From an uncultured Roseburia sp. (GTDB taxonomy: Bacteria; Bacillota; Clostridia; Lachnospirales; Lachnospiraceae), in the NCBI GenBank assembly GCA_947246475.1, contig CAMXSH010000027.1, positions 1-33,263 on the forward strand: a DNA stretch of 33,263 nucleotides, written 5' to 3'. Below, one piece after another: positions 5,806 through 33,099 of this stretch; position 1 is the stretch's first letter, and the number at the start of each line of letters is the position of its first letter. Under the pieces are notes generated by a model. That model was not told the origin of the DNA and made no database searches. It saw only the letters and a program-made list of their open reading frames with translations. The translations under genes were made by a program, and so were the position numbers.

Positions 5806-5833
5806 AGAGGGCTGCGGTTCTCAGTCAGCCCTT
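5806..5833 (+). repeat. 28-nt direct repeat with terminator-like hairpin, copy 2
   Basis: Identical to 5718-5745. It abuts the palindrome 5781-5805 and touches the first base of the stop codon of the convergent FliK-like gene. The pair probably provides transcription ends between convergent genes. Confidence 0.8.
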
Positions 5834-13916: not shown

Positions 13917-13946
13917 AATATTGCAGAGGAAGGTTTGGAGGATAAA

Positions 13947-16325: not shown

Positions 16326-17503
16326 GAAATTTCATTCGGTTTCTCGTAAAAAAAATAGTGATCATCATATATCGTATCATGTGTGTTGTGCTTCCAGTAA
16401 ACAAAAGACGGATTGTTTTTGATTCCAGTCTGGGAAAGAGCTATTCGGGAAATCCAAGGCATATCTTTGAATATATGGTGGAAAATGGTTATCAGGAGAA
16501 GTGGGAATGCACCTGGTTTTATGAAAGCATTCCCTATCCGATCCCTGGAGACGGCTATCAGTTCCGCTATGGACGGCTGCGTTACCTCTACTATATGGCG
16601 ACAGCAAAGGTATGGGTATTTGACTGCCGTCAGCCAGAATGGCTCATAAAGCGGAAAAACTGTTTTTATATCCAGACCTGGCATGGAACCCCGTTAAAAA
16701 AGCTGGTTCTTGATATGGATAATGTATTCATGATGAATGAGACAGACATTGGCACTTATCAGAAGGGCTTTGTGAAAAATGTACAGATCTGGGATTATCT
16801 GATCTCCCAGAATCCATTTTCCACGGTAACATTCCGGCGCGCCTTTGCCTTTGATAAAGAGATGTTGGAGATCGGGTATCCGAGAAATGACCTCCTGCTT
16901 TCTAAAAACAATGAAGAGGATATCTGGCTGTTGAAAAAACGGCTGGGACTGCCTCTGGATAAAAAGATCCTTCTCTATGCGCCCACCTTCCGTGACGATG
17001 AGTTTGAAGAGAATTCCAGCTATAAGTTCAGCCCAAAGCTCTCTTTTGACCTTCTTATGGAGAGACTGCAGGAGGACTATATACTGATCGTCAAGTATCA
17101 TTATCTGATCATGGATTATATTGACTGGTTTCCCTATAATGGATTTATTTATCATTTTGACCAGAGCCATGACATAGCCGAGCTGTTTCTTGTATCAGAT
17201 ATGCTGATCACGGACTATTCTTCTGTCATGTTTGATTACAGCATCCTGAAACGGCCGATGTTTTTCTATGCCTATGATCTGGAAAAATACAGAAATGACT
17301 TGAGAGGATTTTATTTTGACTATGAGGGAGAGATGCCAGGACCGATTTCATCGGACACGGAAGAGCTCATAGGTAATATACTGAATTACGATCCGAAAGA
17401 ATACGAAGAACGCTTCGAGAAATTCCATGAAAAATATAACATCTGGGACGATGGAAGAGCATCGGAAAAGGTGGTGAAGCTCATTGAGGAGCTGATCGGG
17501 TAA
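16322..17503 (+). CDS. CDP-glycerol glycerophosphotransferase family protein (single domain)
   Basis: 393 residues. A short hydrophobic, basic N-terminus (FLVKKIVIIIYRIMCVVL) could bind the membrane. The Glyphos_transf domain then has FDSSLGKSYSGNPRHIFEYM, QTWHGTPLKKLVLDMDN, YAPTFRDDEF, VKYHYLIMD and ITDYSSVMFDYSILKRP. It lacks the GT2 half of its two upstream paralogues. ATG 16322 overlaps the previous stop (ATGA), which suggests translational coupling. It probably primes or extends a poly(glycerol-phosphate)-type polymer; which of the three genes primes and which polymerises cannot be read from sequence. The operon ends at the terminator 17525-17553. Confidence 0.9.
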   Translation: MRNFIRFLVKKIVIIIYRIMCVVLPVNKRRIVFDSSLGKSYSGNPRHIFEYMVENGYQEKWECTWFYESIPYPIPGDGYQFRYGRLRYLYYMATAKVWVFDCRQPEWLIKRKNCFYIQTWHGTPLKKLVLDMDNVFMMNETDIGTYQKGFVKNVQIWDYLISQNPFSTVTFRRAFAFDKEMLEIGYPRNDLLLSKNNEEDIWLLKKRLGLPLDKKILLYAPTFRDDEFEENSSYKFSPKLSFDLLMERLQEDYILIVKYHYLIMDYIDWFPYNGFIYHFDQSHDIAELFLVSDMLITDYSSVMFDYSILKRPMFFYAYDLEKYRNDLRGFYFDYEGEMPGPISSDTEELIGNILNYDPKEYEERFEKFHEKYNIWDDGRASEKVVKLIEELIG

Positions 17504-17729: not shown

Positions 17730-17760
17730 AAGGGCTGCGCTTTTCAGCCAGCCCTTTTTT
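17730..17760 (+). terminator. Terminator-like hairpin overlapping the end of the Ca2+-ATPase gene
   Basis: AAGGGCTG and CAGCCCTT flank an 11-nt loop and are followed by six T. The stem overlaps the last codons of the convergent ATPase gene. The sequence closely resembles the two 28-nt repeats at 5718 and 5806, so the same hairpin family occurs three times in the window. Confidence 0.72.
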
Positions 17761-20302
17761 CGAGTTCCACCAGCGGTACTGGCATCAGTGCCAGTATTCC
17801 CACCAGGATCCATTGCGATACTGACAGGGAGGTGGTGTGGAAGATCATCTGCAGTGTGGGAACGGATATGGCGGCGCACTGCAGGGCAATGCAGAAGATC
17901 ACGCTGAACAGAAGCTTTTTATTGGTGAAAAATCCGATCTGGAAGATGGAGTGGGTGTTGCTTCTCATGTTCAGTGAATGGATCAACTGGGACAGGGAGA
18001 GCACAGCGAAGCACATTGTACTTCCTGCGGCGTCTCCGCCCAGCATGTAGGCGAACAGGGCGAGGGAGCCGATGAACATGCCCTCGACGATGATGGTAAA
18101 CATGCCGCCGCCTCCAAAGAGTCCCTTTGCAGCAGAGACTGGGGGATGCTTCATAATATCGTTTTCTGGTGGTTCCAGTCCCAGGCAGATGGCGGGAAAA
18201 GAATCCGTAACCAGATTGATAAACAGGAGCTGCACTGGGAGCAGCGGTGCAGCTCTTCCCAGCAGGATAGCGACAAAGATCGTCATGATCTCTCCAATGT
18301 TGCAGGAAAGAAGAAAATGAACAGCTTTTTTTATGTTCTGGAAGATTCCCCTGCCCTCTTCTACTGCATCCACAATGGTGGCAAAATTATCATCCATCAG
18401 GATCATATCAGCGGCATTTTTTGCCACGTCAGTTCCAGATCTGCCCATGGCGCAGCCGATATCCGCCTTTTGGAGAGCCGGGGCGTCATTGACGCCGTCT
18501 CCTGTCATGGCGACCACCTCTCCATTATTCTGGAAGGCTTTTACCAGACGAACCTTGTGGGCAGGAGAGACTCTGGCGAAGACAGGGTACTGATAGATGA
18601 CACGGGAGAGCTCGGCGTCGCTGATCTGATCCAGCTGGGCGCCGCTCATGACCTGGTCGTGATGCCGGCAGATCCCCAGTTTATGGGCAATGGCGGAGGC
18701 AGTGACCTGATGGTCGCCAGTGATCATCACTGGGCGGATTCCCGCGTGACGGCATTTTGTGACAGCAAATTCGGCTTCCTTTCTGGGAGGGTCCATAAAA
18801 CCTGCGAGGCCGACAAATACCATATTTTCTTCATAGACGGATTTATCATGTTTCAGGTGGGTGCCGATGTCTTCCCGGCAGGCCAGGGCGAGTACCCGCA
18901 GGGCATCCCTGGCAAATTCCTGGCAGATCTGTTCAATATTTCTCCGTATGCTGTGGGTGATGGGTTTCTTTTCTCCGTCGATCAGGATATGGCTGCAGTG
19001 CTTGAGGATGATTTCTGGTGCGCCCTTGGTGACACTTATAAGTCCTTTTGAGGTTTCATGGAATGTAGTCATTCGTTTACGTTTGGAGTCAAAGGGAAGT
19101 TCGTCTTTTAGATGTCTTTTTTTCTGTTCTGCTTCCATGTTTATGGAAAGAGTATCGGCGTATTCCCACAAGGCTTTTTCCATAGGATCAATACCATGGC
19201 TGCACAGGCAGAAATAAGTAAACAGCCGCTGGGCGGTGTCCATGGTATAGGTTTTTACAACCGTCATTTTGTTTTCTGTGAGAGTTCCGGTTTTATCAGA
19301 ACAGATCACAGTGGCGCTTCCAAGGGTTTCCACGGCGGGAAGCCTGCGGATGATAGCACGTTTTTTCGCCATCCGCTCCACCCCCAGGGAGAGCATGATC
19401 GTGACCAGGGCAGGAAGGCTCTCAGGAATAGCCGCCACCCCCAGGCTGACGGAGGTCATAAACATGGAAAAGACGGGCTGTTTTTTATATATTCCAAGAA
19501 CAAACAGGACAAGGCAGATGATCAGTGCCAGTGTCCCCAGAAGTTTCCCTGTATGGTTTAATTTTTTCTGGAGAGGGGTATCCGGCGGCGTTTCAGAAGA
19601 GATCATTCCGGCGATATGCCCCAGCTCGGTATTCATGCCGGTGGCAGTCACGATGGCAAGACCGTGACCGGAGATGACAAGTGTTCCAGAAAATGCCATA
19701 TTGGCCTGCTCTGCCACCGGAAGATTTTCCTGGTGGAGGGGAGAGGTGGATTTTTCTATAGGATTTGTCTCGCCGGTCAGGGTGGATTCCTCGATGGAGA
19801 GTCCCATGACAGATATGATCCTCGCATCTGCTGGAACAAGATTTCCTGCCTCTAGTACAATAAGATCCCCAGGAACCAGAAGAGAGGAATCGATCTGCTT
19901 TAATTCACCGTCCCGGTATACCAGCGCCAGCGGTGCAGAAAGGTTTTTAAGCGCTTCCAGGGAACGTCTCGCCTTTGCTTCCTGGACAACACCCAGAATC
20001 GCATTGATGATCACGATAGCAAGTATGATGGAGGGCTCGATTAAGTCCATCCGGTGTTCCAGACAGGAGACAGCAAAGGAGATCCCGGCAGCGATCAGAA
20101 GGGTTATAATCATAAAATCCTTAAACTGGTCGATAAAATTTTTCAACATGCTGTCTGGTTTTTTATGAGCCAGCTGGTTTTTTCCATATTTTTGAAGATA
20201 TGCCTCCGCTTTTTTCTGGTGTAATCCGTTCTCTAAATCTGTGTGAAAATGTTTTTCCATCTCTTTTGCAGATGTGTTGTACCAGTCGCTTTTATTTTTC
20301 AT
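17744..20302 (-). CDS. Calcium-translocating P-type ATPase (SERCA/LMCA-like)
   Basis: 852 residues, type II P-ATPase. The actuator loop TGET is at 176-179, PESLP in M4 at 293-297, the phosphorylated D336 in DKTGTLT, and the hinge TGDGVND at 601-607. Residues matching the SERCA calcium ligands are present: E294 in M4, N669 and E672 in M5 ([13 protein letters not shown]), and N697, T700 and D701 in M6 ([18 protein letters not shown]). This supports Ca2+ export from the cytoplasm. The ribosome site before the ATG is poor; GGGAC is the nearest purine run. It is transcribed alone, divergent from the MntP/YtaF-like gene, with a TATAAT on the minus strand at plus 20354-20359. Confidence 0.93.
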
Positions 20303-20414
20303 CCCTGTTGTCCCGAATCTGTTTTACATCATTTTTATGACTTTAAATCTGGAATTATAACTTTTCCCCAGGATAATCATAAGATAAAATAAATAAGTCG
20401 GATTTTAGGAGAAT

Positions 20415-20963
20415 TTGGAGAACGTGATCAAGATAGTATTGCTTGCTTTATCCGCCAGCATTGATTCCTGGGCGGTGGGAGCTGCTTACCGGGCCGGGGA
20501 CATCCGTATCCCATGGTACACGAAAGCGGTCGTCGCACTGGTCTCAGCCATCACATCCATGGCATCAGTTTTTTTGGGAAATGGCATGGGTCATTTTATC
20601 GATACGGCTTATATCCAGATGGCAGGAGGTTTTGTGCTGTTTGTGATCGGTGTGCGGTCGGTCTGGGGGGTTTATCACCACCGGGAAGAAAAGAATTATG
20701 ATGCGGATTCCTCTAAGACTATCGATCCATGGGAGGGAGTCCTGCTGGGAGGCGTTCTTGCCTCGGATTCCTTCTGCGGCGGCCTCAGTCTGTGCGCCAT
20801 GGGGACAGAAGCCTATATATTTCCTATTGTTGTAGGGATCCTCACCTATGGATTTTTGCTGCTGGCAGATAAAAGGGTAAAATGTATCGGAGTTTCCCAC
20901 TATTTTGCCGGGATCGCCCTGGCTGTCATCGGAGTCATGCAGCTGGCAGGAGCACTGCATTAG
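20415..20963 (+). CDS. MntP/YtaF-family membrane protein (DUF204)
   Basis: 182 residues, six predicted membrane helices arranged as two repeats. Each repeat has a conserved aspartate in a small-residue helix: ALSASIDSWAVGAAYR near the start and GVLASDSFCGGLSL in the second half. Relatives include the Mn2+ exporter MntP and the sporulation membrane protein YtaF; the RAGDIRIPW segment fits YtaF-like members better. The start is uncertain between TTG 20415 and GTG 20424, with the ribosome site AGGAGA at 20407-20412. It precedes the unknown-function locus by about 115 nt and may or may not share its transcript. Confidence 0.8.
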   Translation: MENVIKIVLLALSASIDSWAVGAAYRAGDIRIPWYTKAVVALVSAITSMASVFLGNGMGHFIDTAYIQMAGGFVLFVIGVRSVWGVYHHREEKNYDADSSKTIDPWEGVLLGGVLASDSFCGGLSLCAMGTEAYIFPIVVGILTYGFLLLADKRVKCIGVSHYFAGIALAVIGVMQLAGALH

Positions 20964-21077
20964 TGAAGGGAAAGAATGAACTGGAATTTCCTATTTACAA
21001 AACCGCTGTATTTATATACAATTATAATAGAATACGGATATAGATCCAGGGACTTTCAGAGAAAGGCGGATATATGT

Positions 21078-22049
21078 ATGGACGGGGCAGCACAGTTTTT
21101 TATGGGTGCAGGCGGTGTACTGGCAGGTTATATCATCATAGGAATTGCTGCCGCTATCGGCAGGATCGTGGGGGGATTATTGTTACATTTCAGATTTGAT
21201 CACTTTATATTTTTTATGATAAAAATCAGTAAGAAAAACAAAGGATTTTCTATCGGGCTGTGTGATCCACAGCCTTACATAAAGTGCCGTATGACAGATC
21301 CGAAAGATACCCGGATGAGAAATCTGATCTATGGTGCATTTTCCATGGCGGTGGCGCTGTTTTTTACGGAGACAGCCTGTTTTCAGATCTGGGGGACAAA
21401 ACTTATGCCTAAAAATGTCTTTACAGTTCCGATGGCTGTTGTAATGGTGGGGTATACATTTGTACTGATGGTGCATCTGGCGTTCAATCAGAAGCAGAAA
21501 GCAGGCACCGGGGCAGCCGGGGTCATGAGGCGTGAGTACGAGCGGTGCTATGCCGCGATCCGGGAGGGAAGGGCGCCGGCAGAACTGGAAGTCCAGACGG
21601 TGTCTTATACCGGAAAGCTGACGGATCTGTCTGTTTACAAAAAATATCTTCTGATGCTGTATTATCATTTTCTGGACAGGGGTGACTATGACAGTCTTCG
21701 GAAAGTCATGGACGAGATGGAGGATCATGTGCCGGATAAATGGTCCCGGGGTGAGATGCCCAGTTTATGTGAATTTGTATTTTACAATGTGATCATTCAG
21801 CCCAACGAGGGAAAAGCACATTTTTATGGAAAATCTTTTCTGGCAAAAATGGAGGGCAATGAAGAGGCGAATATCAAGAGAGTCTTCGCCTATTGGCTTT
21901 ATTTTGTCCAAAAGGATAAGGGAGCGGCTCTCCAGATCGCCATGGAGGCGATGAAAGCGGTGGGGAATTATTCCCTGACGGGATGCCGCGATATGGAGAT
22001 GCGTTTTATCGAGGCACTAATCAAACGCATCGAGCAGACACCATCATAA
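21078..22049 (+). CDS. Membrane protein of unknown function, first gene of the scaffold locus
   Basis: 323 residues from ATG 21078, which has AAAGGCGG 9 nt upstream. A longer reading from ATG 20976 (AAGGG 5 nt upstream) would add 34 residues, but that stretch contains a TATAAT (21023-21028) and reads poorly as protein. A glycine-rich membrane helix (about 13-36) is followed by a basic cytoplasmic loop, then two more helices (about 85-104 and 117-139). The remaining 180 residues are soluble and helical, in TPR-like pairs (YKKYLLMLYYHFLDRGDYDSLRKVMDEM). No catalytic motif is seen and I do not recognise the family. It is 16 nt from the next gene, so they are co-transcribed and it may anchor that protein at the membrane. 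Confidence 0.75.
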   Translation: MDGAAQFFMGAGGVLAGYIIIGIAAAIGRIVGGLLLHFRFDHFIFFMIKISKKNKGFSIGLCDPQPYIKCRMTDPKDTRMRNLIYGAFSMAVALFFTETACFQIWGTKLMPKNVFTVPMAVVMVGYTFVLMVHLAFNQKQKAGTGAAGVMRREYERCYAAIREGRAPAELEVQTVSYTGKLTDLSVYKKYLLMLYYHFLDRGDYDSLRKVMDEMEDHVPDKWSRGEMPSLCEFVFYNVIIQPNEGKAHFYGKSFLAKMEGNEEANIKRVFAYWLYFVQKDKGAALQIAMEAMKAVGNYSLTGCRDMEMRFIEALIKRIEQTPS

Positions 22050-22065
22050 CCGGGGAGAAAATGCG

Positions 22066-25000
22066 ATGAGAGAGAAAGTCATGTCACTGGCTCAGGGCAG
22101 ATTTACATATGAGCAGCCTGAGATCGTCTGTTCCACAGACTGTCTGAAGCTGGAAGTAGTTGAGGGAGGGGAAGCTGCCTCCTCTTTTACAGTATCCAAT
22201 TCTGCCGGGACGAAGATCAAGGGCTTTGGAGCGGTGGATCATTTCAATATAGAATTTCTGCCGGTTTTTGACGGGAAGGAAAATGAAATTACGGTAAAGG
22301 TATATGCTGCCAATAAAAAAGCGGGGGAAGTCATGGCGGGTGATCTCTGCATCGTGACGGACTGCGGTGAATACATGATGCCATATGAGGTCAAAGTATT
22401 ACCACGCTGCCTGCGCAGTTCTGATGGGGAGATCCATTCCTTTGAAGAATTTGTAGAGCTTGCCAGGGAAAACTTTGAAGAGGCAGTTATGATCTTTTAT
22501 CATGATAAATTTAAAAAGATTTATCTTAAGGAGTGGGGAGAAAAAAGATTATATCAGAATTTGACAATGAAAAATCCAAAGAAGCAGGCGTTGGAGGAGT
22601 TTTTAGTGGCTCATGGCGATAAAAAGCCAGTGCGGTTTGCGGCAAATAAAAGACAGATTTCTTTTGAAGTAGGGGAAGAAGATATCGAAGGAGAGATCCT
22701 GATCGCACTGGACAGCTGGGGAGTGGCGGGGATCCGGGTGAGCACGGGAAGCCCTTGCATCGCATTGCAGAAAAACAGCCTCAGCAATAAGGATTTTGTG
22801 CAGAATCGGGCAGTACTTGCTTTTTATATTCAGGCTTCCGAAGTTCCAGAGGGGATCCACCGATGTTCGATCCTTCTGGAAAATGTGTACCAGAAACTGG
22901 AGATCAGGGTGAGGCTTCACGGGGTGCAGGGAAGGAAGGAAAGGGCGAAAAAGCGTAGTCTGGACAAGCTGATGGGACTGCTGGCAAAATATCATATTCA
23001 GTACATGATGAACAGCAGTTTGAAAGACGTGTGGCTTCGGGTGCTGGTGGAGAACCGGGAAATGATCGGCAGCCTGGGGAAGGGAAATGATGTTCTCCTG
23101 GAGGGCTACATGGCGGTCTTAACCAGGGAAGAGAGGAAAATGGCTGCTTTTGTCAATGCAGTGACAGGGATGCCGGCGCCGGCTCTGGGGGACAGTATAG
23201 AAAAAGTGTACTGTTATCTGACCACTATGTATATACGATGTCTTGCCCTGGGGTCCCTTGAGGAAAAAAGCATGTTGTGCCGGAAGATCAGGGAATATTA
23301 TGACAACGGCTGCCATCACTGGCGCCTTCTTGTTATGCTGGAGAGGCTGGGGTATTTTCAGGGAAGTTCCCAGGGGCTGATGGAGGAGCTGGATCTGCTT
23401 TGCAAGGAGGGGGCTTTCAGTCCGTATCTGCATTTATACCGGATGTTACTGTTGCTGCAGGAGCCGGAGCTGTTGAAGAAATTGGACAACAGTACAATAG
23501 GAACTCTCAGATTCGGCTTAAAACACGATTTAATTACCGAAGATCTGGCGATTGCAGTATCTTTTCTGGCGGTACGGGAGAAGAAATGTACTCCTGCGCT
23601 CCTGTCTGTACTGCAGGGCTGCTATGAAGTATACGGCAGTAAAGATACTCTTCATAGTATCTGCGCCCTGCTGATCCGGACGGAGAAAATGGAGACCAGA
23701 TATTTCAAATGGTTCCGTCTTGGAGTGGAGAAGCGGCTGCGTCTCACGGAACTTTTTGAATATTATATGTACACAATGGACAGAGAGCGTTATGATGAAG
23801 CGCTGCCAATGGTCACATCCTATTTTCAGTATGAGAATCATCTTAGAGATTCCGTACGGGCGGGGTTTTATGCAAGTATTGTCAGGAACCAGGAGAGATA
23901 TCCGGAGTATTACCAGAGTTATCATGAGGCGATACGGGAATACACGCTCCGTCAGCTGTATGATCATCGAATCAGTCCGCAGCTGGCAGTGTTGTATGAG
24001 GAATTTCTCAGTGTGGAAAATTGTAAAGACAGGATCGCCAGAGAGCTGCCGGGGGTTTTGTTTGTCCACCGCCTTCACTGCGATAACAGGAATATGGAAC
24101 GGGTAGCAGTTCTCCATGATGAGGGTGGCGGAGAGATGGTCTATAACCTTGTCAATGGAGAGGCAGATATCAGCATTGGGACATCAAATTTTAAATTGTA
24201 TTTCGTAGATAAGAACGGATATTATCATGGGGATACGGTGTCATATACGCTGACAAAGGTATTAAATCTGGAAAGTACAGCACAGGTCTGTTACGAAAAT
24301 GGTTCCGAGAACCCGGTGCTTCTGCTCTATTTATTTTCAGAGACTTTGAAGAAGAAAGACATCGGGGCAAAGGACGCCATTCTCCTGCACACCATGATCC
24401 GCCGGAAGGTGCCCGGAGTGGAGTACAGGCAGAAAGCCCTGCTTATTTTATATGATTATTACAAAGCTATCGGGGAGGATCTGCTGCTGGAAGAGGTAAT
24501 TCATCGCATTGATTTCCAGTATCTGACCCAGGAGAGGCGCGCTGGGATCCTGCAGACGATGATTCAGCACGAATGGAAAGATGAAGCGCTGAGCCTGCTG
24601 AAAAAGTACGAGATCACCAGCTGCAGCCTGAAACTTCTTTTGCTTCTGATCACCTGGAAACTTGAGGAGAACCGGGAGCATTTTGAGCCGTACTATATGA
24701 AACTCTGCAGTTTCTTATACCGGAGAGGCATAAAAAACAATGAGACTCTTTCTTATCTGGCAGATTTTTATATGGGGAGCATTTCTGTGCTTTATGATAT
24801 ATATCAGACTGCCCGGAAGAACGGAGCAGAGATATCGGACGGCGGGACGGAACGGCTTCTTGGCCAGGCATTGTTCGTGGAAGATGGTCTGGAAAAATAC
24901 GCGGATATTTTCCTTGATTATTATGAGTATGGTGCAAACCGGATCCTGGTAAAAGCCTTTTTGGGAAGTATTTCTTATGGGTATCTGACGGAGAGATGGC

Positions 25001-25614
25001 AGATGCCGGAGGGGATCTGGGAAAAGATCCGCAGAGAAGGGCTTTCTGAGGAGAATCAGAGTATGATACTGGCTTCTCTGCGTTTTTATGCTGGAATGGA
25101 TGAGTATACGGAAGCGGAGAAGGAGTATATCGCTTACCACCTGTCTCATTTTGCTTCCACTGGGAAGATATTTTCCTTTATGAAGGGATTTGTTGGAAAA
25201 GTGGAGGTTCCTTTTGAGGTACTTTATGGAAGTATTATCCAGCTGTGCTATTCCCGCAGTAAAGACATCTATATCGAGCTTTCTTCTGAGGATGGAGAAA
25301 AAGAGATCTGTAGGATGAAACCGGTATTTGAGGATATCTATGTATATGAGACCTTATTATTCCGGGGAGAGACGGTTCATTATCAAATTTTTGCCGGGAC
25401 AGAATCCAGCCCTGTCAGGCAGGGGGTAATCTGTGCCGAGGATAAAATATTTGGGGAGATGGCAGAACCGGGAAAAGCGGCAGCTGCCTTTTATGAGATG
25501 GTGAACCAGATGATCCTGGCGCGGGAGAATGGGGAAGAAGAAGTATTGCGCCAGCTGGTCCGGAAGTACCGTTCCATGCAGGAAATTTCCGGAAAGCTGT
25601 TTGCTCCACTTTAG
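22066..25614 (+). CDS. Large beta/helical scaffold protein (resembles DUF5717)
   Basis: 1182 residues, no signal peptide, no membrane helix. Residues about 15-112 form a beta-sandwich of the pattern SFTVSNSAGTKIKGFG...GDLCIVTDCGEYMMPYEVKV, as in the DUF5717 N-terminal domain (from memory). After a short helical part (125-182, SFEEFVELARENFEEAVMIFY), a second beta domain lies at about 188-286. Residues about 300-1040 are a long helical solenoid without a recognisable catalytic motif. Residues about 1046-1120 are a last beta domain, then a helical tail. Such a layout suggests a protein-protein scaffold. ATG 22066 has GGGGAG 8 nt upstream. It sits between a membrane protein and an actin-fold protein. 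Confidence 0.75.
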   Translation: MREKVMSLAQGRFTYEQPEIVCSTDCLKLEVVEGGEAASSFTVSNSAGTKIKGFGAVDHFNIEFLPVFDGKENEITVKVYAANKKAGEVMAGDLCIVTDCGEYMMPYEVKVLPRCLRSSDGEIHSFEEFVELARENFEEAVMIFYHDKFKKIYLKEWGEKRLYQNLTMKNPKKQALEEFLVAHGDKKPVRFAANKRQISFEVGEEDIEGEILIALDSWGVAGIRVSTGSPCIALQKNSLSNKDFVQNRAVLAFYIQASEVPEGIHRCSILLENVYQKLEIRVRLHGVQGRKERAKKRSLDKLMGLLAKYHIQYMMNSSLKDVWLRVLVENREMIGSLGKGNDVLLEGYMAVLTREERKMAAFVNAVTGMPAPALGDSIEKVYCYLTTMYIRCLALGSLEEKSMLCRKIREYYDNGCHHWRLLVMLERLGYFQGSSQGLMEELDLLCKEGAFSPYLHLYRMLLLLQEPELLKKLDNSTIGTLRFGLKHDLITEDLAIAVSFLAVREKKCTPALLSVLQGCYEVYGSKDTLHSICALLIRTEKMETRYFKWFRLGVEKRLRLTELFEYYMYTMDRERYDEALPMVTSYFQYENHLRDSVRAGFYASIVRNQERYPEYYQSYHEAIREYTLRQLYDHRISPQLAVLYEEFLSVENCKDRIARELPGVLFVHRLHCDNRNMERVAVLHDEGGGEMVYNLVNGEADISIGTSNFKLYFVDKNGYYHGDTVSYTLTKVLNLESTAQVCYENGSENPVLLLYLFSETLKKKDIGAKDAILLHTMIRRKVPGVEYRQKALLILYDYYKAIGEDLLLEEVIHRIDFQYLTQERRAGILQTMIQHEWKDEALSLLKKYEITSCSLKLLLLLITWKLEENREHFEPYYMKLCSFLYRRGIKNNETLSYLADFYMGSISVLYDIYQTARKNGAEISDGGTERLLGQALFVEDGLEKYADIFLDYYEYGANRILVKAFLGSISYGYLTERWQMPEGIWEKIRREGLSEENQSMILASLRFYAGMDEYTEAEKEYIAYHLSHFASTGKIFSFMKGFVGKVEVPFEVLYGSIIQLCYSRSKDIYIELSSEDGEKEICRMKPVFEDIYVYETLLFRGETVHYQIFAGTESSPVRQGVICAEDKIFGEMAEPGKAAAAFYEMVNQMILARENGEEEVLRQLVRKYRSMQEISGKLFAPL

Positions 25615-25646
25615 CTCGAGAGGTCAAATTTGCGCTGTCGGGCTAA

Positions 25647-25676
25647 GACAGATACTGCCACTCAGAGCGGTATGTC
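25647..25676 (+). other. Intergenic hairpin within the scaffold locus
   Basis: GACA, a 2-nt bulge, then TACTGC pair with GCGGTA-TGTC around an 8-nt loop. There is no T tract. It occupies the only sizeable gap (89 nt) between the scaffold gene and the actin-like gene. It may be an mRNA processing or stability element; no promoter is evident there. Confidence 0.4.
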
Positions 25677-25703
25677 AGTATGTTTGGAAAGGTTTGATTA
25701 GCT

Positions 25704-26912
25704 ATGAGCCAGCGAAGGCTGTATGTAGGCTTGGATATTAGAAATGATATTTCCCAGATCGCAGTTCTGGGACCGATGCATCAGGAACTGGAGATATTGA
25801 GTCCTGGAGATGAGAATGGGATGGATTATCCTACCAGGGTGGCAGTTCCGGGAACAAAGGAGTATATAGAGGGATTTCTGGAGAAGATCTGCTGCCAGGA
25901 GCCAGTGATGGCGGCTGGCAGGGAGACGGATCCAGTAAATATCATGGCCACATTTTTTCGTAAGATACTGTCTAAGACGCGGAAAAAGTATCCCAACGAA
26001 TCCATCCGGCAGCTGGTAATCACTACGGAGTACCGGGATTATCGGCTTATCGGCATTATCTACCAGGCTTTATCAAAAATCGGGATACATCGGGACCGGG
26101 CAATGGTCATCGACCGACGCCAGAGCTTTATTTATTATGTGCTGAGCCAGAAGAAAGAACTTTGGATCAATCATGTAGGTGTTTTTGACTATATGAAGGA
26201 CAGGCTGATGTATCTTCAGATGGAGACGGACCGTTATAAGCGGCCGATGTTAGCCACTGTGGAAGAGAGGGATTACAGCGATTATATTCCGATGTTCCAG
26301 GAGAAAGACAGTACCGAAGAGGAAAAGAATGCGATCTTTGAGGGTATGGTCCAGGGCGCCATCCATGGGAAGATCATCACAACTCTTTATATGACAGGAT
26401 CTGGGTTTGAGGGGGGATTTGCAGAAGCTGTCATGAAGAAGCTCTGTGTGGGACGCCATCTGTTTCAGGGAAATACTCTGTATGTGAGCGGGGCATGCTA
26501 TTGTGCCAGGGAAATGTCAGAGGAACGCAGGCTGGATGAGTTCGTGTATCTGGATGAGGATACGGTGGAAGTCAATATTTCCATGAATGTTTATGCAGAT
26601 GGGCAGCCCCAGGAAATTCTTCTTGCCAGGGCGGGAACTCCCTGGTATCAGATTGACCATGAGATCAATCTGATACCCGATGGGGACAGGGAACTGGAAC
26701 TAAATGTGAAGAATGTGCGTACGAAGAATAAGTCTAAACAGTGTATCCCGATGGAGGGAATTCCCGGAAGGACAAATAGAAGGGCGAGGATCGGTCTTCA
26801 GCTGAGATTTGCCGGGAAAGAAAAGTGCATTGTCACAGTCAGGGACAAGGGGTTCGGAGATTTTTTCCCATCCTCCTGCCGGATCTGGGAAAAGACCATC
26901 ACCATTGAATAA
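25704..26912 (+). CDS. Degenerate actin/Hsp70-fold protein (resembles DUF5716)
   Basis: 402 residues. The N-terminus RRLYVGLDIRNDISQIAVL copies the first phosphate loop of the Hsp70/FtsA superfamily (GxDxG...xAV), but with R-N where G-T is usual. The middle VGVFDYMKDRLMYLQM takes the place of the second phosphate loop without the glycines. TLYMTGSGFEGGFAEAVMKKL resembles the adenosine loop, followed by QGNTLYVSGACYCARE at the place of the usual GAA helix. The C-terminal 120 residues are beta-rich. Nucleotide binding may be weak or absent. Start ATG, with GGAAAGG 10 nt upstream. Possibly a membrane-associated structural partner of the scaffold protein. Function unknown. Confidence 0.7.
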   Translation: MSQRRLYVGLDIRNDISQIAVLGPMHQELEILSPGDENGMDYPTRVAVPGTKEYIEGFLEKICCQEPVMAAGRETDPVNIMATFFRKILSKTRKKYPNESIRQLVITTEYRDYRLIGIIYQALSKIGIHRDRAMVIDRRQSFIYYVLSQKKELWINHVGVFDYMKDRLMYLQMETDRYKRPMLATVEERDYSDYIPMFQEKDSTEEEKNAIFEGMVQGAIHGKIITTLYMTGSGFEGGFAEAVMKKLCVGRHLFQGNTLYVSGACYCAREMSEERRLDEFVYLDEDTVEVNISMNVYADGQPQEILLARAGTPWYQIDHEINLIPDGDRELELNVKNVRTKNKSKQCIPMEGIPGRTNRRARIGLQLRFAGKEKCIVTVRDKGFGDFFPSSCRIWEKTITIE

Positions 26913-26926
26913 AGGAAGCGATTTAA

Positions 26927-27730
26927 ATGTTTATTTTGTGCAAGGGAGAGCTGGCAAAAGAGCCTTATATCATTCCAGTCTCAGAGACGCTGGTGTATTC
27001 GCTGGAGGAACTCTGTTATTATATGTATCATCATATATACAGCGTTACAGAGGATTTTTTTGACGGGAAGCTGGTTCAATGGCTCGGCGAGCAGGCGGGA
27101 TTAGAAGAACTGGCAGAAAAAATGCGTGTGCTGGTTCAGAAAAAGAATGACCTCAAAGATCTGGTAGTTACATTGATGTGCTCCTGCGATTATTATAAGG
27201 AGGAGGAAATCCTGCAGCTGGTAACAGTGATGAAGAAGATTGAAAATCTCCCCTCCCATGAGAAGAACAAGATAAAGGCGGATAATTATCTTCGCGCCGG
27301 CAAGTACGGCAAGAGCCTGATGGAGTATAAACAGCTTCTCTATGGAGAGATGGCAGAACAGTTTTCTACGGAGGAGTATGGGAATCTCCTTCATAATCAG
27401 GCGATTGCCCTGTTTCATGTATCCTCCTTCCGGGAGGCTGCCAATGGCTTTAAGGAAGCGTATGCCAGAAATCACAGTGAACAGTCACTTAATCAGTATC
27501 TGTATGCGTTGCTGCTCAATGGTCAGGAGGAGCAGTTTGTCCAGGAAGGCAGTTCTTTTGGAAAGACGGAGGAAGAATTACAACAATTAAGACAGAATTA
27601 TATCGATGCGCAAACCGGGGGGAAGGATGACGGTGGTGAGGAGGAGTTTATCAGCTGCTGTAAAAATGAGCTTCGGTCAGCTTATTCAGATGGGGGTGTA
27701 AATGATGGGATTCCGATTGTTTCGCAGTAA
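26927..27730 (+). CDS. TPR-like helical protein of unknown function
   Basis: 267 residues, soluble and all-helical. The first 60 residues (GELAKEPYIIPVSETLVYSLEELCYYMYHHIY) form a compact domain with aromatic residues. From about 115 to 205 there are TPR-like helix pairs (KADNYLRAGKYGKSLMEYKQLL; NLLHNQAIALFHVSSFREAANGFKEAY; LNQYLYALLLNG). The tail is acidic and low in complexity. The ribosome site AAAGGA precedes the ATG, 14 nt after the previous stop, and the 3' end overlaps the next gene by 29 nt. No family recognised; presumably a protein-interaction module of the same complex. Confidence 0.72.
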   Translation: MFILCKGELAKEPYIIPVSETLVYSLEELCYYMYHHIYSVTEDFFDGKLVQWLGEQAGLEELAEKMRVLVQKKNDLKDLVVTLMCSCDYYKEEEILQLVTVMKKIENLPSHEKNKIKADNYLRAGKYGKSLMEYKQLLYGEMAEQFSTEEYGNLLHNQAIALFHVSSFREAANGFKEAYARNHSEQSLNQYLYALLLNGQEEQFVQEGSSFGKTEEELQQLRQNYIDAQTGGKDDGGEEEFISCCKNELRSAYSDGGVNDGIPIVSQ

Positions 27731-28934
27731 GAAAAAAGATAAGGGAGATCAGCAGCTGGCGGCAGAAGCTGAGATGGAACACGGAGCAGAGGCGGAAGGT
27801 GTGGAAAAAGACCTGGAAGATGTGCCAGAGCAGATAAAGCTGGAAAAAGAGAAAGTAGATCTGACGAATAAGCCGATCCGGCTGGATTATATCCAGAGAT
27901 TATGGGATGGGATCCAGGAGGCAAAACGGCAGTGCGGGGACATCAAGGCGGAGTATGGACAGGTCACTTCTTATCTGAAAGATATCCAGCTGATGGACCA
28001 GGCATTAGAAGAAGAAAAAACGGTGCTTAAGGATACGGCGTCTGCCATTGTGGAACTGACGGCAGAACGGGAAAAGCGAAAGGGACGCCGTTATAAATTT
28101 ACAGACGCCCAGAGGGCAGCCATGGAAAATTTTGAGCCCAAGTTAGAAGGCGACATCTCAAAATTAAAGGAATTTGAGGATTATCAGATTAAAATCAAAC
28201 ACGATATGCGGCAGCTGGATGGGGAAAAAAGGATGCTGCTGAGGGATAAGAGGGATATCATCCGGAAGCAGAGTACGTTACAGCTGGTAAGTAAGGTGCT
28301 TGGTTTTATGCTGGCAATGTTTGGCATCCTTCTTGTGACGATACTGGTGGTTTTTGAGACCGACATTCGTGTTCCTTTTATCGCCACAGCTGCATTTGCC
28401 TTTGTAGTGACGCTCATTATCGTTATAGAGGCTGGAAAAAACCGAAGGGACATGGTTCTCACTGAGAGAAGATGCAACCGTGCCATTTCTTTTTCAAACC
28501 GGGTCAGGATTAAGTATGTGAACAACACAAGAACCATTGATTATATGTGTACCAAATACCGTGTGCGGAATGTGACGGAACTGGAATTTGTTTACGATCA
28601 GTACCGCAAGGCAAAACGGGAGTGGGCGAGGCAGCGTGAAGATGCCTTTCTTCTAAACGAAAAAAATGAGATTCTTCTGGCAGAGCTGAAAAAGATCGGT
28701 GTCAAAGACCGGGACCTTTGGCTTGGCAGGGCGAATGCCATTGTCGATCCGAGAGAGATGGTTGAGGTCCGGCACGAACTCAATGAGCAGCGTCAGAAAC
28801 TCCGGGCACAGATCGATTATAACAATGGGATCATGCAGGATTTCATTCAGGAACTGGAACGGATCCGGAACAAAAAGCCGGAGTATGCGCAGGAGGTCGA
28901 AGATATTTTGAAAGACAGGGATTTGGAGGGATAA
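27702..28934 (+). CDS. Coiled-coil protein with two central membrane helices, unknown function
   Basis: 410 residues. A basic start (GFRLFRSKKKDKG) leads into an acidic stretch and long charged helices (about 65-190) suggesting coiled coil. Two adjacent membrane helices follow (about 195-218, VLGFMLAMFGILLVTILVVF; and 225-245, FIATAAFAFVVTLIIVIEAG), then another long charged helical region to the end. This gives a hairpin in the membrane with both coiled-coil arms in the cytoplasm. ATG 27702 or 27705 (GGGGG about 6 nt before the second). It overlaps the upstream gene and is 4 nt before the CBS gene, hence one operon. No family recognised. Confidence 0.72.
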   Translation: MMGFRLFRSKKKDKGDQQLAAEAEMEHGAEAEGVEKDLEDVPEQIKLEKEKVDLTNKPIRLDYIQRLWDGIQEAKRQCGDIKAEYGQVTSYLKDIQLMDQALEEEKTVLKDTASAIVELTAEREKRKGRRYKFTDAQRAAMENFEPKLEGDISKLKEFEDYQIKIKHDMRQLDGEKRMLLRDKRDIIRKQSTLQLVSKVLGFMLAMFGILLVTILVVFETDIRVPFIATAAFAFVVTLIIVIEAGKNRRDMVLTERRCNRAISFSNRVRIKYVNNTRTIDYMCTKYRVRNVTELEFVYDQYRKAKREWARQREDAFLLNEKNEILLAELKKIGVKDRDLWLGRANAIVDPREMVEVRHELNEQRQKLRAQIDYNNGIMQDFIQELERIRNKKPEYAQEVEDILKDRDLEG

Positions 28935-28938
28935 ATGT

Positions 28939-29370
28939 ATGAATATACTTTTTTTGCTGAAACCGAAAAAATCAGTTGCTTACTTATATGATGACGATAC
29001 TATAAGACAGGGGCTGGAAAAGATGCGAAGCCACAGCTATACAGCGTCCCCGGTGCTCTCCCATGAGGGGGTCTATGTAGGAACCATAAATGAGGGTGAT
29101 TTTTTGAGGGGGATTTTTCGCAACAATGAAGGTGACCTGAAACATCTGGATGAGGAACTGGTAAGGGATATTTTGCGAAAGGACTGGAACCATCCGGTGA
29201 AGGTCAGCGCCACTGTAGAGGATATGCTTGAGCGCGTTCTCAATCAGAATTTTGTTCCAGTGGTGGACGACCGTGGCTTGTTTGTGGGGATCATTACCAG
29301 ACGATCAGTGCTAAAGCATTTTAGGGACCGGATACTGGAATTAAAGAAAAAGGTGGAGGAAAAGGAGTGA
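28939..29370 (+). CDS. Tandem CBS-domain protein, DarB/CbpB-like (possible cyclic-di-AMP sensor)
   Basis: 143 residues, two CBS motifs and nothing else. The first is DDTIRQGLEKMRSHSYTASPVLSHEGVYVGTINEGDFL; the second is ATVEDMLERVLNQNFVPVVDDRGLFVGIITRRSVLKHF. The last segment closely resembles the FEGIFTRRVVLKEL end of Bacillus DarB (YkuL), a cyclic-di-AMP receptor that acts on Rel and pyruvate carboxylase (sequence recalled). Ligand binding here is inferred. ATG 28939 has GGAGGG 8 nt upstream. The stop overlaps the possible GTG start of thiE. Its place after the coiled-coil membrane gene ties a nucleotide sensor to the unknown locus. Confidence 0.82.
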   Translation: MNILFLLKPKKSVAYLYDDDTIRQGLEKMRSHSYTASPVLSHEGVYVGTINEGDFLRGIFRNNEGDLKHLDEELVRDILRKDWNHPVKVSATVEDMLERVLNQNFVPVVDDRGLFVGIITRRSVLKHFRDRILELKKKVEEKE

Positions 29371-29378
29371 CACAGCAT

Positions 29379-30014
29379 ATGAAACCACGAGTGGATTATA
29401 CTCTTTATCTCTGTACAGACAGAGAACTTATGACTACAGATACTATTGAAGAGGCGGTGGAGCTTGCCATCAAAGGGGGAGCGACGGTTGTACAGCTGAG
29501 GGAGAAAGACTGTTCTGGCAGAGAATTTCTGGAGATCGCCCATAGTGTAAAAGAGGTGACAGATGCCTATGAGATACCGCTTATTATAAACGACCGGATC
29601 GATATTGCCCTGGCAGTGGATGCAGACGGTGTTCATCTGGGACAGAAGGATATTCCGGCTATGACGGCAAGAGAACTTCTCGGTCAGGACAAGATCATCG
29701 GGGTATCTGCCTTTAATGCAGAACTGGCACTTCAGGCACAAAAAGATGGTGCAGACTATATCGGTGTGGGAGATGTGTTTGGCACATCTACCAAAGCAGA
29801 TACCCATCATGTATCCATAGAGGAGCTTATGAAAATAAGAAACGCCGTAAAGATCCCGATGGTGGCGATCGGTGGCGTAAACCACGGAAACGTGGAAAAA
29901 CTCCGGGGTACCGGTGTGGATGGTGTGGCGGTGATCTCTGCTCTGATCGGAGCAAAGGATATCACCGGCGCAGCAGAAAAAATGGCGGGTAAACTGGAGG
30001 AGATAAAGAGGTAG
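29379..30014 (+). CDS. thiE: Thiamine phosphate synthase
   Basis: 211 residues, TIM-barrel. It joins the hydroxymethylpyrimidine and thiazole phosphates into thiamine monophosphate. Motifs: YTLYLCTDRELM, VVQLREKD (pyrimidine pyrophosphate site), IINDRIDIALAVDADGVHLGQKD, YIGVGDVFGTSTK, VAIGGVNHGNV and GVAVISALIGA. I chose ATG 29379 (AAAGGAG 11 nt upstream) because ThiE proteins normally begin close to the first strand; GTG 29367, overlapping the CBS stop, is also possible with GGAGGA 6 nt upstream. No other thiamine gene and no TPP riboswitch lies in the window, so it seems to travel with the CBS operon. Confidence 0.93.
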   Translation: MKPRVDYTLYLCTDRELMTTDTIEEAVELAIKGGATVVQLREKDCSGREFLEIAHSVKEVTDAYEIPLIINDRIDIALAVDADGVHLGQKDIPAMTARELLGQDKIIGVSAFNAELALQAQKDGADYIGVGDVFGTSTKADTHHVSIEELMKIRNAVKIPMVAIGGVNHGNVEKLRGTGVDGVAVISALIGAKDITGAAEKMAGKLEEIKR

Positions 30015-30036
30015 CACGAGCGCACCGCCCAGTGGG

Positions 30037-30888
30037 TTATCTCAAGTTTTCCAACAGCATGACTGGTATCCTCAGATTTCCAGTGCCAGTACCCATCTCA
30101 ATATCTGGTTTGTTGTCGCCGTGGAAATCAGACCCGCCGGTGATAAAAAGACCATATTCATCTGCCAGCTTGCGTACAAATGCCTCATCGGTCCCGTGAT
30201 TTCGGGAGTAGAGGGCTTCAATCCCGCGGATGCCATAGGTTTTAAGTGTTTCAAGCATCGTTCGGATCTGGCTGACGGACAGCTTATACAGAAGGGGATG
30301 TGCTAGTACCGGGATACCGCCCGCATCCTGAATGAGCTGAATGGCGCCTTCTGGTGTCAGATATTCACGGTTTACAAAATAGGGGCTGTCTGTGGCAAGA
30401 CAGGTCTTAAAGGCAGCGTCCATAGAGGGGACACCACCATTTTCTAATAATAATTTAGCGAAATGGGCTCTGGTCAGTATCATATCACCAAATTTCTTTG
30501 TCAGTTCCTGGTAGGTAATGGGATATCCAGCATTGTGTAGATTTTCACACATTTTTTTGTTGCGGTTATCCCGTTCTTCTGCCACTTTTTTTAAGGTGGA
30601 GACCAAAGCAGGGTTTGTATGGTCTATGTTATAGCCCAGTATGTGGATCTCTACATTCTGGCTGGGGGCAGCAGGATACTGGCAGGATAGTTCTACGCCT
30701 GGGATCACCTGGATATGCTGATCCAGTTCCTCTGCCTTTCGGATTGCCCGGCCGACGCCGTCTACCGTATCGTGGTCAGTGAGGGCGAATGCCACAAGAT
30801 CATTTTTTATTCCCCGCAGCACCAGTTCTTCCGGCGTAAGCGTGCCGTCTGAGCAGGTGGAGTGTACGTGTAAATCTATATATCTCAT
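30037..30888 (-). CDS. PHP-domain phosphoesterase (RNase AM/YciV-like)
   Basis: 283 residues. The four PHP metal motifs are visible: DLHVHSTCSDG, ALTDHDTVDG, IPGVELS, and the final GGSDFHGDNKPD; the inserted helical domain carries RAHFAKLLLENG and VLAHPLL. Homologues hydrolyse 3',5'-nucleoside bisphosphates or trim short RNA 5' ends in the cytoplasm. Good AGGAGG 6 nt before the ATG. Transcribed from an extended -10 promoter (30929-30937). It converges on thiE with only 22 nt between the genes and no obvious terminator. Confidence 0.9.
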   Translation of the reverse strand: MRYIDLHVHSTCSDGTLTPEELVLRGIKNDLVAFALTDHDTVDGVGRAIRKAEELDQHIQVIPGVELSCQYPAAPSQNVEIHILGYNIDHTNPALVSTLKKVAEERDNRNKKMCENLHNAGYPITYQELTKKFGDMILTRAHFAKLLLENGGVPSMDAAFKTCLATDSPYFVNREYLTPEGAIQLIQDAGGIPVLAHPLLYKLSVSQIRTMLETLKTYGIRGIEALYSRNHGTDEAFVRKLADEYGLFITGGSDFHGDNKPDIEMGTGTGNLRIPVMLLENLR

Positions 30889-31668: not shown

Positions 31669-31725
31669 TGCGTTGGTGCAGTCGGGATATGATTGGAAAG
31701 ATGGAAGATAGCGGGGACGAAAGAA

Positions 31726-33099
31726 ATGATTCATCAATATAAAAATAATGGATATAATATAGTTCTGGATGTAAATAGTGGCTCTGTTCATGTGGTAGAT
31801 GATGTGGCATACGATGTGATCAGTATGTATGAAGAAAAGGGAAAAGAAGAGATTACGGAGATCATCTGCAGAAAGTATAGCGATGAAGGGATCACAGAGG
31901 AAGAGATAAGGGAATTATTTAACGATCTTGAGCAGTTGAGAGAAGAGGGAACTCTATTTACAGAGGATACCTATAAAGATGGTGTAATTGATTTTAAACA
32001 GCGCCAGACAGTAGTGAAGGCTCTCTGCCTGCATATTGCCCATGCCTGCAACCTTTCCTGCCGTTACTGTTTTGCCGGAGAAGGAGAGTATAAGGGAGAC
32101 CGCTCTCTGATGAGTTTTGAGGTGGGGAAAAAGGCTTTGGATTTTCTTGTGGAGAATTCTGGCAGCAGACGGAACCTGGAAGTGGATTTTTTTGGCGGCG
32201 AGCCGTTGATGAATTTTGAAGTGGTCAGACAGCTGGTAGCATATGGCAGAAGCCTTGAGGAAAAATTTGACAAGCATTTCCGCTTTACACTGACCACGAA
32301 TGGGGTGCTGCTGAATGATGAGATCATAGAATTTGCAAATCAAGAGATGGATAATATTGTTCTCAGTATCGATGGCAGAAAAGACGTACACGATCATATG
32401 CGTCCCAATAAAAACGGAGATGGCAGTTACGATCTGATCCTCGATAAATTTAAAAAGGTAGCGGAGAGCCGTAATCAGCAGAAATACTATGTGCGGGGGA
32501 CATTTACCCACTACAATCTGGATTTTGTAGAGGATGTGCTGCATTTGGCGGACCAGGGGTTTGAACAGATCTCTGTAGAGCCGGTGGTGGCTGGACCAGA
32601 GGAGCCCTATGCCATCCGTGAAGAAGATATACCAGCAATCTGCGAGGGATATGACAGACTGGCGCAGGAAATGATCAAAAGAAAAAAGGAAGGCAGAGGT
32701 TTTCATTTCTTTCATTACATGATCGATCTGACAGGAGGTCCCTGCGTTTACAAGAGATTATCCGGCTGCGGATCCGGGACGGAGTATCTGGCAGTTACTC
32801 CCTGGGGAGACCTGTACCCCTGCCATCAGTTTGTGGGAAATGAGGATTTTCTGCTGGGAAATGTGGAAGATGGGATTGAAAATACAGAGATCCGGGATAA
32901 GTTTAAGCTCTGCAATGTGTATGCCAAAGAGGAGTGCCGGAATTGTTTTGCCAGGTTTTACTGCAGCGGAGGATGTGCCGCCAATGCATTTAATATGCAT
33001 CAGGACATTAATAAGCCTTATGAGATCGGCTGCCAGTTACAGAAAAAAAGGATCGAGTGTGCCCTGATGATACAGGCTGCTCTTTCGGCAGAGGATTAA
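31726..33099 (+). CDS. scfB: SCIFF radical SAM maturase (thioether-forming, SPASM domain)
   Basis: 457 residues. The N-terminal part (1-95, MIHQYKNNGYNIVLDVNSGS) is the peptide-binding region of the family. The radical SAM cluster is C108-x3-C112-x2-C115 (CNLSCRYC), followed by FFGGEPLMNF. The C-terminal SPASM region supplies auxiliary Fe-S ligands: GSGTEYLAVTPWGDLYPCHQF, then CNVYAKEECRNC, FYCSGGCAAN and IGCQ. It uses S-adenosylmethionine to make Cys-to-alpha-carbon thioethers in the ScfA peptide. I chose ATG 31726, preceded by GGGGA and matching the family start, over TTG 31693. The last codons (AED, stop) lie in a 55-nt repeat found again at the window end. Confidence 0.96.
   Translation: MIHQYKNNGYNIVLDVNSGSVHVVDDVAYDVISMYEEKGKEEITEIICRKYSDEGITEEEIRELFNDLEQLREEGTLFTEDTYKDGVIDFKQRQTVVKALCLHIAHACNLSCRYCFAGEGEYKGDRSLMSFEVGKKALDFLVENSGSRRNLEVDFFGGEPLMNFEVVRQLVAYGRSLEEKFDKHFRFTLTTNGVLLNDEIIEFANQEMDNIVLSIDGRKDVHDHMRPNKNGDGSYDLILDKFKKVAESRNQQKYYVRGTFTHYNLDFVEDVLHLADQGFEQISVEPVVAGPEEPYAIREEDIPAICEGYDRLAQEMIKRKKEGRGFHFFHYMIDLTGGPCVYKRLSGCGSGTEYLAVTPWGDLYPCHQFVGNEDFLLGNVEDGIENTEIRDKFKLCNVYAKEECRNCFARFYCSGGCAANAFNMHQDINKPYEIGCQLQKKRIECALMIQAALSAED

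Follow-up and report, generated by a model that had tools for sequence, protein, structure and literature searches.

Three adjacent genes (g2, g3 and g4) in a 33,263-nucleotide stretch of DNA from an uncultured Roseburia sp. form, often together with a fourth (g5), a unit that is conserved across the Lachnospiraceae. We give about an even chance to the reading that this unit is the small form of an operon for several Hsp70 chaperones, and that what is left of it is a binding scaffold that needs no ATP and is linked to the membrane. The stretch, here called the window, is contig CAMXSH010000027.1 of a 2.66-Mb assembly and was analysed at its full length. Throughout, "family" stands for Lachnospiraceae, the family of the window, and "order" for Lachnospirales, which contains that family plus the 12 families with which it was compared. 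An earlier reading of the window, made from the letters alone (the sequence-only reading), had described six co-directional genes with short gaps or overlaps, and six open reading frames (ORFs; g1 to g6) do lie in one direction at 21078-29370, separated by 16, 89, 14, −29 and 4 bases. That reading had also suspected a resemblance of two members to DUF5716 and DUF5717, which Pfam confirmed. The 402-amino acid (aa) product of g3 (25704-26912, + strand) matches DUF5716_C (PF18980, 3.9e-99), and the 1182-aa product of g2 (22066-25614, +), which opens the conserved unit, matches DUF5717_N (PF18984, 1.7e-196) and DUF5717 (PF18983, 1.7e-50). The view of the unit as the small form of an operon with several Hsp70s and a GrpE protein goes beyond what that reading had envisaged.

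The central observation concerns g3, whose sequence identifies it almost certainly as a diverged Hsp70 with a shortened nucleotide-binding domain (NBD), the β part of the substrate-binding domain (SBD-beta) and no lid. A degenerate actin/Hsp70 fold had been proposed for this protein; the proposal was right, and both a profile search of the PDB and profile-profile comparison place g3 with Hsp70 and not with actin. At E values up to 1, a profile made from 58 family g3 sequences retrieved 19 distinct sequences from the PDB, of which 17 were Hsp70s; none was an actin relative, and the matches were instead DnaK/BiP-type Hsp70s. Six DnaK sequences matched at 1.1e-6 to 9.8e-5 and BiP at 0.08-0.15 over the whole sequence, and the two matches that were not Hsp70s had E values of 0.35 and 0.42. 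The NBD start and SBD-beta of g3 were collinear with those of the Hsp70s in these alignments. An SBD-beta-like block (residues 346-385; 26739-26858, +) aligned with residues 414-461 of DnaK and 445-494 of BiP and ends in an invariant D-x-G-F-G motif, in which D381, G383 and G385 are the same in all 58 sequences. In profile-profile comparison, family g3 matched DUF5716 of other families at 2.9e-66 (426 columns), the Hsp70-B protein of the large operon described below at 3.1e-25 (407 columns) and DnaK at 6.9e-7 (385 columns, probability 92); three unrelated profiles used as a control gave 0.33-0.57. Members from other families bridge the two Pfam models: the DUF5716 protein of one such locus (L139) matches both DUF5716_C (1.8e-25) and HSP70 (1.9e-16), and the DUF5716_C stretches of G694 and G695, the two such genomes so searched, also match the HSP70 model. 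DUF5716 and DUF5717, Pfam families without a function, thereby gain a concrete origin.

The same alignments indicate what g3 has lost. Of phosphate-1 only the G and D of DnaK are retained, neither connect-1 nor phosphate-2 can be recognised, and the adenosine loop still has its G. DnaK residues 201-260 (numbering of L106), which we take to be most of NBD subdomain IIB, have an occupancy of 0.00 in the 58 family g3 sequences; most of this segment is retained in g3 of other families (occupancy 0.73 to 0.95). Judged by these alignments, g3 no longer has its ATP loops, and in this family most of lobe IIB of the NBD is missing as well. Homology to the NBD and SBD-beta of Hsp70s is thus present, and the nucleotide motifs and a complete NBD are not. 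Subdomain IIB is the lobe of the NBD that GrpE grips in DnaK, and in the family the absence of this lobe coincides with the absence of the GrpE gene of the large operon.

The surroundings of g3 were surveyed in 60 loci, one from each of 60 further genera of the family. The choice was made among matches with high scores on long contigs (about 170 of 293 were listed), so that diverged cases are under-sampled. The sequence-only reading had named scattered homologues as speaking against a shared unit; g2, g3 and g4 adjoin in the same order and direction in all 60 genera, and g3 and g4 are a single ORF in three of them (L076, L078 and L081). Next after g4 comes g5 in 37 loci. The alignments include 58 of 61 g3, 53 of 61 g4, 38 of 38 g5 and 40 of 61 g2 sequences, with g3-g4 fusions and some others excluded. 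The conserved unit is g2-g3-g4, often plus g5, and g1 and g6 are a local feature of close relatives. DUF5717_N was found in 293 of 299 family genomes (244 of 246 of good quality) and in five of 398 genomes of a phylum-wide sample. All five are from the family, and just one of the 393 negative genomes is from another family of the same order. The negative family genomes G668, G417 and G595 (77, 67 and 70% complete) retain g3.

The products of g2, g4 and g5 are characterized to different degrees. In the window, g1, g4 and g5 had no Pfam match above the cut-off. Relatives were more informative for g4 (26927-27730, +; 267 aa): 39 of the 53 aligned members match TPR_2 at E<=0.1, and the PDB matches of the g4 profile are TPR proteins. 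Judged from these relatives, g4 is a TPR protein, as the sequence-only reading had it, and a likely partner of g3. The membrane hairpin suggested for g5 (27702-28934, +), a facultative member of coiled-coil type with 410 aa and the proposed membrane tether, was also upheld, with hydrophobic stretches within residues 192-246 and at least one such stretch in each of the 38 aligned g5 proteins; the g5 profile has no PDB relative at E<=0.01. For g2, the proposed scaffold, no PDB match was obtained below E 0.5, and the Ig-like ends once attributed to it found no Pfam support among the 40 members scanned.

The proteins of the unit evolve fast, with median identities of 26, 28 and 26% for g2, g3 and g4 and 72% for valS in the 18 loci that have valS. 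Their distances are correlated beyond the effect of valS (partial r 0.76, 0.73 and 0.53 in the same 18 loci), which is consistent with a complex and is no proof of one. In eight loci (L044, L050, L051, L056, L061, L072, L086 and L093) an HtpG gene lies one to three genes upstream of g2. A relative of PPIC-type peptidyl-prolyl isomerases, short in two cases and reversed in one, is near HtpG in the same eight (Pfam assignments of HtpG and of this relative from L044 only). This linkage agrees with a role in folding. As a separate observation, 11 of the 60 loci carry a TPR protein with a zinc-ribbon-like N-terminal start four to nine genes downstream of g2 (e.g. L046:15914-17479).

Outside the family, DUF5716 occurs in a much larger operon. 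DUF5716_C was found in 59 of 116 order genomes: all 11 from the family have it, as do 48 of the 105 from other families, usually in two neighbouring ORFs. We sampled 19 stretches from 18 of these 48 genomes, representing 12 families, and one from the family genome G594. The order of genes is g2 (one or two ORFs), Hsp70-A, X, g3, Hsp70-B, Hsp70-C and g4, where X is a protein of 560-645 aa with a GrpE domain at its end. The full operon is in one place in 14 of the 18 genomes, from nine families, and is interrupted by contig ends in three more. In G695 it is distributed over three contigs as g2-A, X-g3 and B-C-g4 (L131, L137 and L138), a split that may reveal sub-modules. Variation was also seen in L136, where X is short yet keeps its GrpE end and C and g4 are two ORFs each. 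Three of the 19 stretches have g5.

The intact Hsp70s of this operon are readily recognised. In L139, A, B and C match HSP70 at 1.8e-77, 2.5e-57 and 2.2e-95, g4 is a TPR protein, and g2a and g2b jointly span DUF5717. The GrpE domain of X scored 1.4e-14 (54.6 bits) in L139 and 1.2e-10 (41.7 bits) in L152, the two X proteins scanned, against a cut-off of 25.8. A and B terminate after SBD-beta and have no lid. At the place of the DnaK lid, Hsp70-C of L139 ends in a VWA domain (1.2e-10). The metal ion-dependent adhesion site (MIDAS) motif reads DTT(G/S)SM in the 10 sequences displayed, and the DxSxS pattern occurs in 0 of 16. The ATP motifs are intact in Hsp70-A, B and C, and g3 lacks them in both operon forms. 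Three sequences in this motif comparison are foreign to the group in which they were counted: a fragment of Hsp70-C (L136) and an ORF of A type (L154) are among the 18 of the B group, and a family sequence (L155) is among the 19 of the ancestral g3 group. The ancestral g2 profile had weak matches outside the order (in 5 and 6 genomes). The two examined, L177 and L178, were set aside as chance or a shared beta domain, since neither an Hsp70 nor another operon gene adjoins them. The match in L177 is a 1047-aa ORF (L177:6838-9981) of a distant genome that resembles the C-terminal part of DUF5717 weakly (5e-05), possibly through such a domain.

The large operon is cleanly marked by the N-terminal part of X, which was found in 45 of the 116 order genomes, 44 of which also have DUF5716. 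Four genomes have DUF5716 and no marker (G694, G705, G734 and G741), and one has the marker and no DUF5716 (G696). In the family the marker was absent from all 11 of these genomes and, in a wider search, from all 187 of good quality; among all 230 family genomes searched, it gave one weak match (G595, 18.9 bits). The HSP70 model matched one DnaK and two ORFs of about 340 aa in the genome of the window, and these were its only matches. The evidence for the loss of A, B and C comes from this genome and, by position, from the 60 loci. Extra Hsp70s in two loci of the same genus (L119 and L120) were considered as A, B or C and rejected, being closer to DnaK.

The two forms very probably share a common locus. 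A class I/II aminotransferase gene lies upstream, reversed, in about 21 of the 60 family loci, and valS lies downstream in 19 to 23 (Pfam assignments were made on one aminotransferase and one valS). Inspection by eye of the flanks of the large form found the aminotransferase in L146 and L152 and valS in L136, L139 and L152, and these shared flanks indicate that the small unit and the large operon are the same locus. We consider it likely that the change between them was a loss in the family and not a later gain elsewhere. Twelve families have the large form, a single one has the small form, and both forms contain a degenerate g3, which makes loss in the family ancestor the simpler account. In a tree of 95 sequences, which includes 20 of the 58 family g3 proteins, family g3 forms a clade with one other g3 at a support of 0.995. 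In the family genome G594, g3 and g4 accompany a g2 that encodes 853 aa.

These observations suggest the following model. In the large form, Hsp70-A, B and C, the GrpE-ended X, the degenerate DUF5716 protein, the TPR protein and DUF5717 would work as one ATP-driven complex on particular clients. In the family, the GrpE protein and the intact Hsp70s would have gone and the degenerate DUF5716 would have been kept. The small form would then act without ATP, the DUF5716 protein gripping a client or partner through its SBD-beta. A role of g4 as its standing TPR partner is suggested by adjacency and gene fusion, DUF5717 would be the scaffold of the complex, and g5, where present, would anchor it to the membrane. 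The near-universality of the unit and the hairpin of g5 suggest as the probable client a membrane or envelope assembly that the family nearly always needs. For the small form as an ATP-independent, membrane-linked scaffold taken by itself, we put the chances slightly below even. Somewhat more tentatively, the order may possess a type of Hsp70 machine that is as yet undescribed: a complex of different Hsp70s, linked to the membrane and equipped with GrpE and VWA parts of its own. In this gut family it would now be an ATP-free pseudo-chaperone scaffold for a core task, perhaps envelope or division-site assembly. The series from three intact Hsp70s with GrpE and a dead paralog to the dead paralog alone makes a pseudo-chaperone role without ATP directly testable. 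Lachnospiraceae are among the most abundant families in the human gut, and presence in 293 of 299 family genomes combined with fast evolution makes the unit a strong candidate for a lineage-defining function.

Several observations weigh against this model. In the three alignments displayed, the SBD-beta block alone had i-E values of 3.4 to 17, which is not significant. The curated HSP70 model is not matched above its cut-off by g3 of the window, and it is not among the 25 of 41 Pfam families listed for the 58 g3 sequences. The sole predicted membrane part, g5, is missing from 23 of the 60 loci, so that a membrane tether is not general, and a genome-wide search with the g5 profile, run without a positive control, found it in none of the 23 genomes whose locus lacks it. 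The unit is apparently missing from G426, G488 and G621 (93, 98 and 89% complete), which have neither DUF5717_N nor g3 (a weak match in G621 is DnaK), and is therefore not strictly essential. The tree node that unites family g3 with other g3 proteins has a support of 0.0, and the direction of change thus rests on parsimony. The HtpG linkage, finally, may just be inherited synteny.

Other explanations were weighed against the same data. It is unlikely that the operon encodes a cytoskeleton-like machine, in which lidless Hsp70s would co-assemble like actin on DUF5717 and the family would retain a nucleotide-free subunit as a static element of shape or division. Such a machine would fit the absence of a lid after SBD-beta in A and B, the membrane hairpin of g5 and the near-universality of the unit in single copy, and A, B and C of L139 do match MreB_Mbl as well (8.2e-8, 6e-12 and 1.6e-18). 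HSP70, however, far outscores MreB in all three, SBD-beta is retained, the GrpE domain in the operon suggests chaperone cycling, and the PDB matches of the g3 profile, as described above, are on the side of Hsp70 and not of actin. We regard as quite improbable a reversed history in which the small form came first and duplication of a DUF5716-type gene later gave rise to the large operon in the other families. The unsupported base of the g3 clade leaves room for it, and the small form is by far the commoner one in this family. Against it, g3 is without ATP motifs in both forms and A, B and C have them, and a dead Hsp70 would not easily yield intact ones; moreover, the large form is spread over 12 families and the small form was found here in one.

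A role in defence, which the sequence-only reading had entertained, seems very improbable. The comparison would be with published GTPase-centred conflict systems that, in the available text of their description, pair HSP70 with GrpE, sometimes with a second HSP70 that lacks the peptide-binding domain, and include FNIII-TPR/DnaJ fusions (PMC7159879); the fast evolution of g2-g4 relative to valS is in keeping with such a role. No GTPase was found by Pfam among the nine proteins of the L139 operon, however, which was the one large operon scanned, and none of the six window proteins matched a family among the PADLOC anti-phage models (E<=0.01). The locus is also near-universal with constant partners, unlike patchy defence loci. 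Least credible of all is the original picture, in which the six genes make up a single assembly at the membrane and the CBS protein g6 is its nucleotide sensor. The genes are tightly spaced, five close relatives share the arrangement, and g6 resembles CbpB at 79.3 bits. Nevertheless, g1 and g6 have homologues in 0 of the 60 loci of other genera, a genome search found g1 in 2 of 150 family genomes (that of the window and one weak match of 24.9 bits), and mntP and thiE are linked equally in the same close relatives. The neighbourhood survey thus removed the togetherness of the six, and nucleotide sensing through g6 is a local feature at best; the families, the Hsp70-type fold, the TPR protein, the hairpin and a conserved unit remain from that interpretation.

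The two local companions can be described briefly. g1 (21078-22049, +) encodes a membrane protein with two hydrophobic segments. It has an alternative in-frame ATG start at 20976, and its frame is open only from a 21078-type start in two of the five close relatives (L009 and L010); it was not found in the same-genus genome G505. g6 (28939-29370, +; 143 aa) encodes a two-CBS protein (Pfam CBS, 5.4e-16). The CBS part of its description as DarB-like stands, but its score against the curated CbpB model is under the cut-off of 125 and does not place it in CbpB/DarB. On one side, an Mntp-family ORF (20415-20963, +) stops 12 bases short of g1 in its longest frame; on the other, g6 and thiE (29367-30014) have 4 bases in common. 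mntP and thiE are therefore packed as tightly as g1-g6, and spacing alone sets no limit to the six. Like g1 and g6, both are retained in all five close relatives (L007-L011) and have no homologue in the 60 loci. Over 20300-30200, promoter-like sites are no more frequent than chance predicts (14 found, 14.1 expected), and 12 terminator-like sites were found where 6.9 were expected, with none inside the gaps between g1 and g6. tRNA was the sole match of an Rfam scan.

Other features of the window were recorded in passing. Upstream of g1, a cation P-type ATPase (17744-20302, −) stands back to back with the Mntp-family ORF, a pair that is also kept in L007-L011. A radical SAM protein at 31693-33099 (+) has a SPASM domain and a sub-cut-off PqqD match, a layout that is frequent among peptide-modifying enzymes. 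Three ORFs at 11730-17503 (+) have CDP-glycerol glycerophosphotransferase domains, two of them together with glycosyltransferase-2, in what resembles a teichoic-acid cluster. An ORF at 5833-7608 (−) has a FliK-type hook-length domain (3.4e-11), with no other flagellar match among the window ORFs scanned, and 10445-11353 (+) encodes a DUF1002 protein (3.5e-77).

Comparison with known systems starts from Pfam, where g3 and g2 belong above cut-off to DUF5716 (PF18980) and DUF5717 (PF18984 and PF18983), families that carry no function. No paper on this operon was among the matches listed in the open-access literature searched, and the sole paper found under the names DUF5716 or DUF5717 mentions DUF5716 once, in the text available, in an unrelated context. 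In the portion of a review available to us, the prokaryotic Hsp70s are given as DnaK, HscA and HscC (PMC8215388). The large operon is like the DnaK-GrpE, HscA and HscC machines, as outlined there, in its NBD and SBD-beta, in the intact ATP motifs of A, B and C and in the GrpE domain of X. It differs from them in having four Hsp70-type paralogs, lidless A and B, a VWA domain on C and a GrpE domain that ends the long X, and family g3 differs further in lacking the ATP motifs. The three intact Hsp70s of L139 also stay far under the DnaK/HscA equalogue cut-offs (268 of 648, 210 of 709 and 350 of 648 bits). The main text of a survey of DnaK duplications does not mention Clostridia or Lachnospiraceae (PMC11019930).

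To go by the available text, theme 2 of the GAP1-N2 GTPase-centred systems (PMC7159879) comes closest among published systems; it shares with the present operon HSP70 and GrpE, in some cases a second, incomplete HSP70, an FNIII-TPR/DnaJ fusion and a link to the membrane. The described systems are centred on a GTPase and GAP1 and extend across several phyla; neither a TRAFAC GTPase nor GAP1 was matched among the nine proteins of L139, the sole operon scanned for them. CnuD of the CoCoNuT systems, as presented in the part of the paper at hand, has a degenerate Hsp70-like NBD/SBD within a multi-gene system with helical repeats, but CoCoNuTs are restriction systems with a McrB-type GTPase and nucleases, none of which was seen at the present locus (PMC11090510). 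The StkA-StkB-StkC locus of Myxococcus xanthus has other partners, its abstract describing no DUF5717, GrpE or TPR set; it is likewise a small locus with an Hsp70 homologue and bears on a surface trait, exopolysaccharide (PMC4319316). According to the same abstract, StkA is an Hsp70-like protein able to affect a surface trait (PMC4319316).

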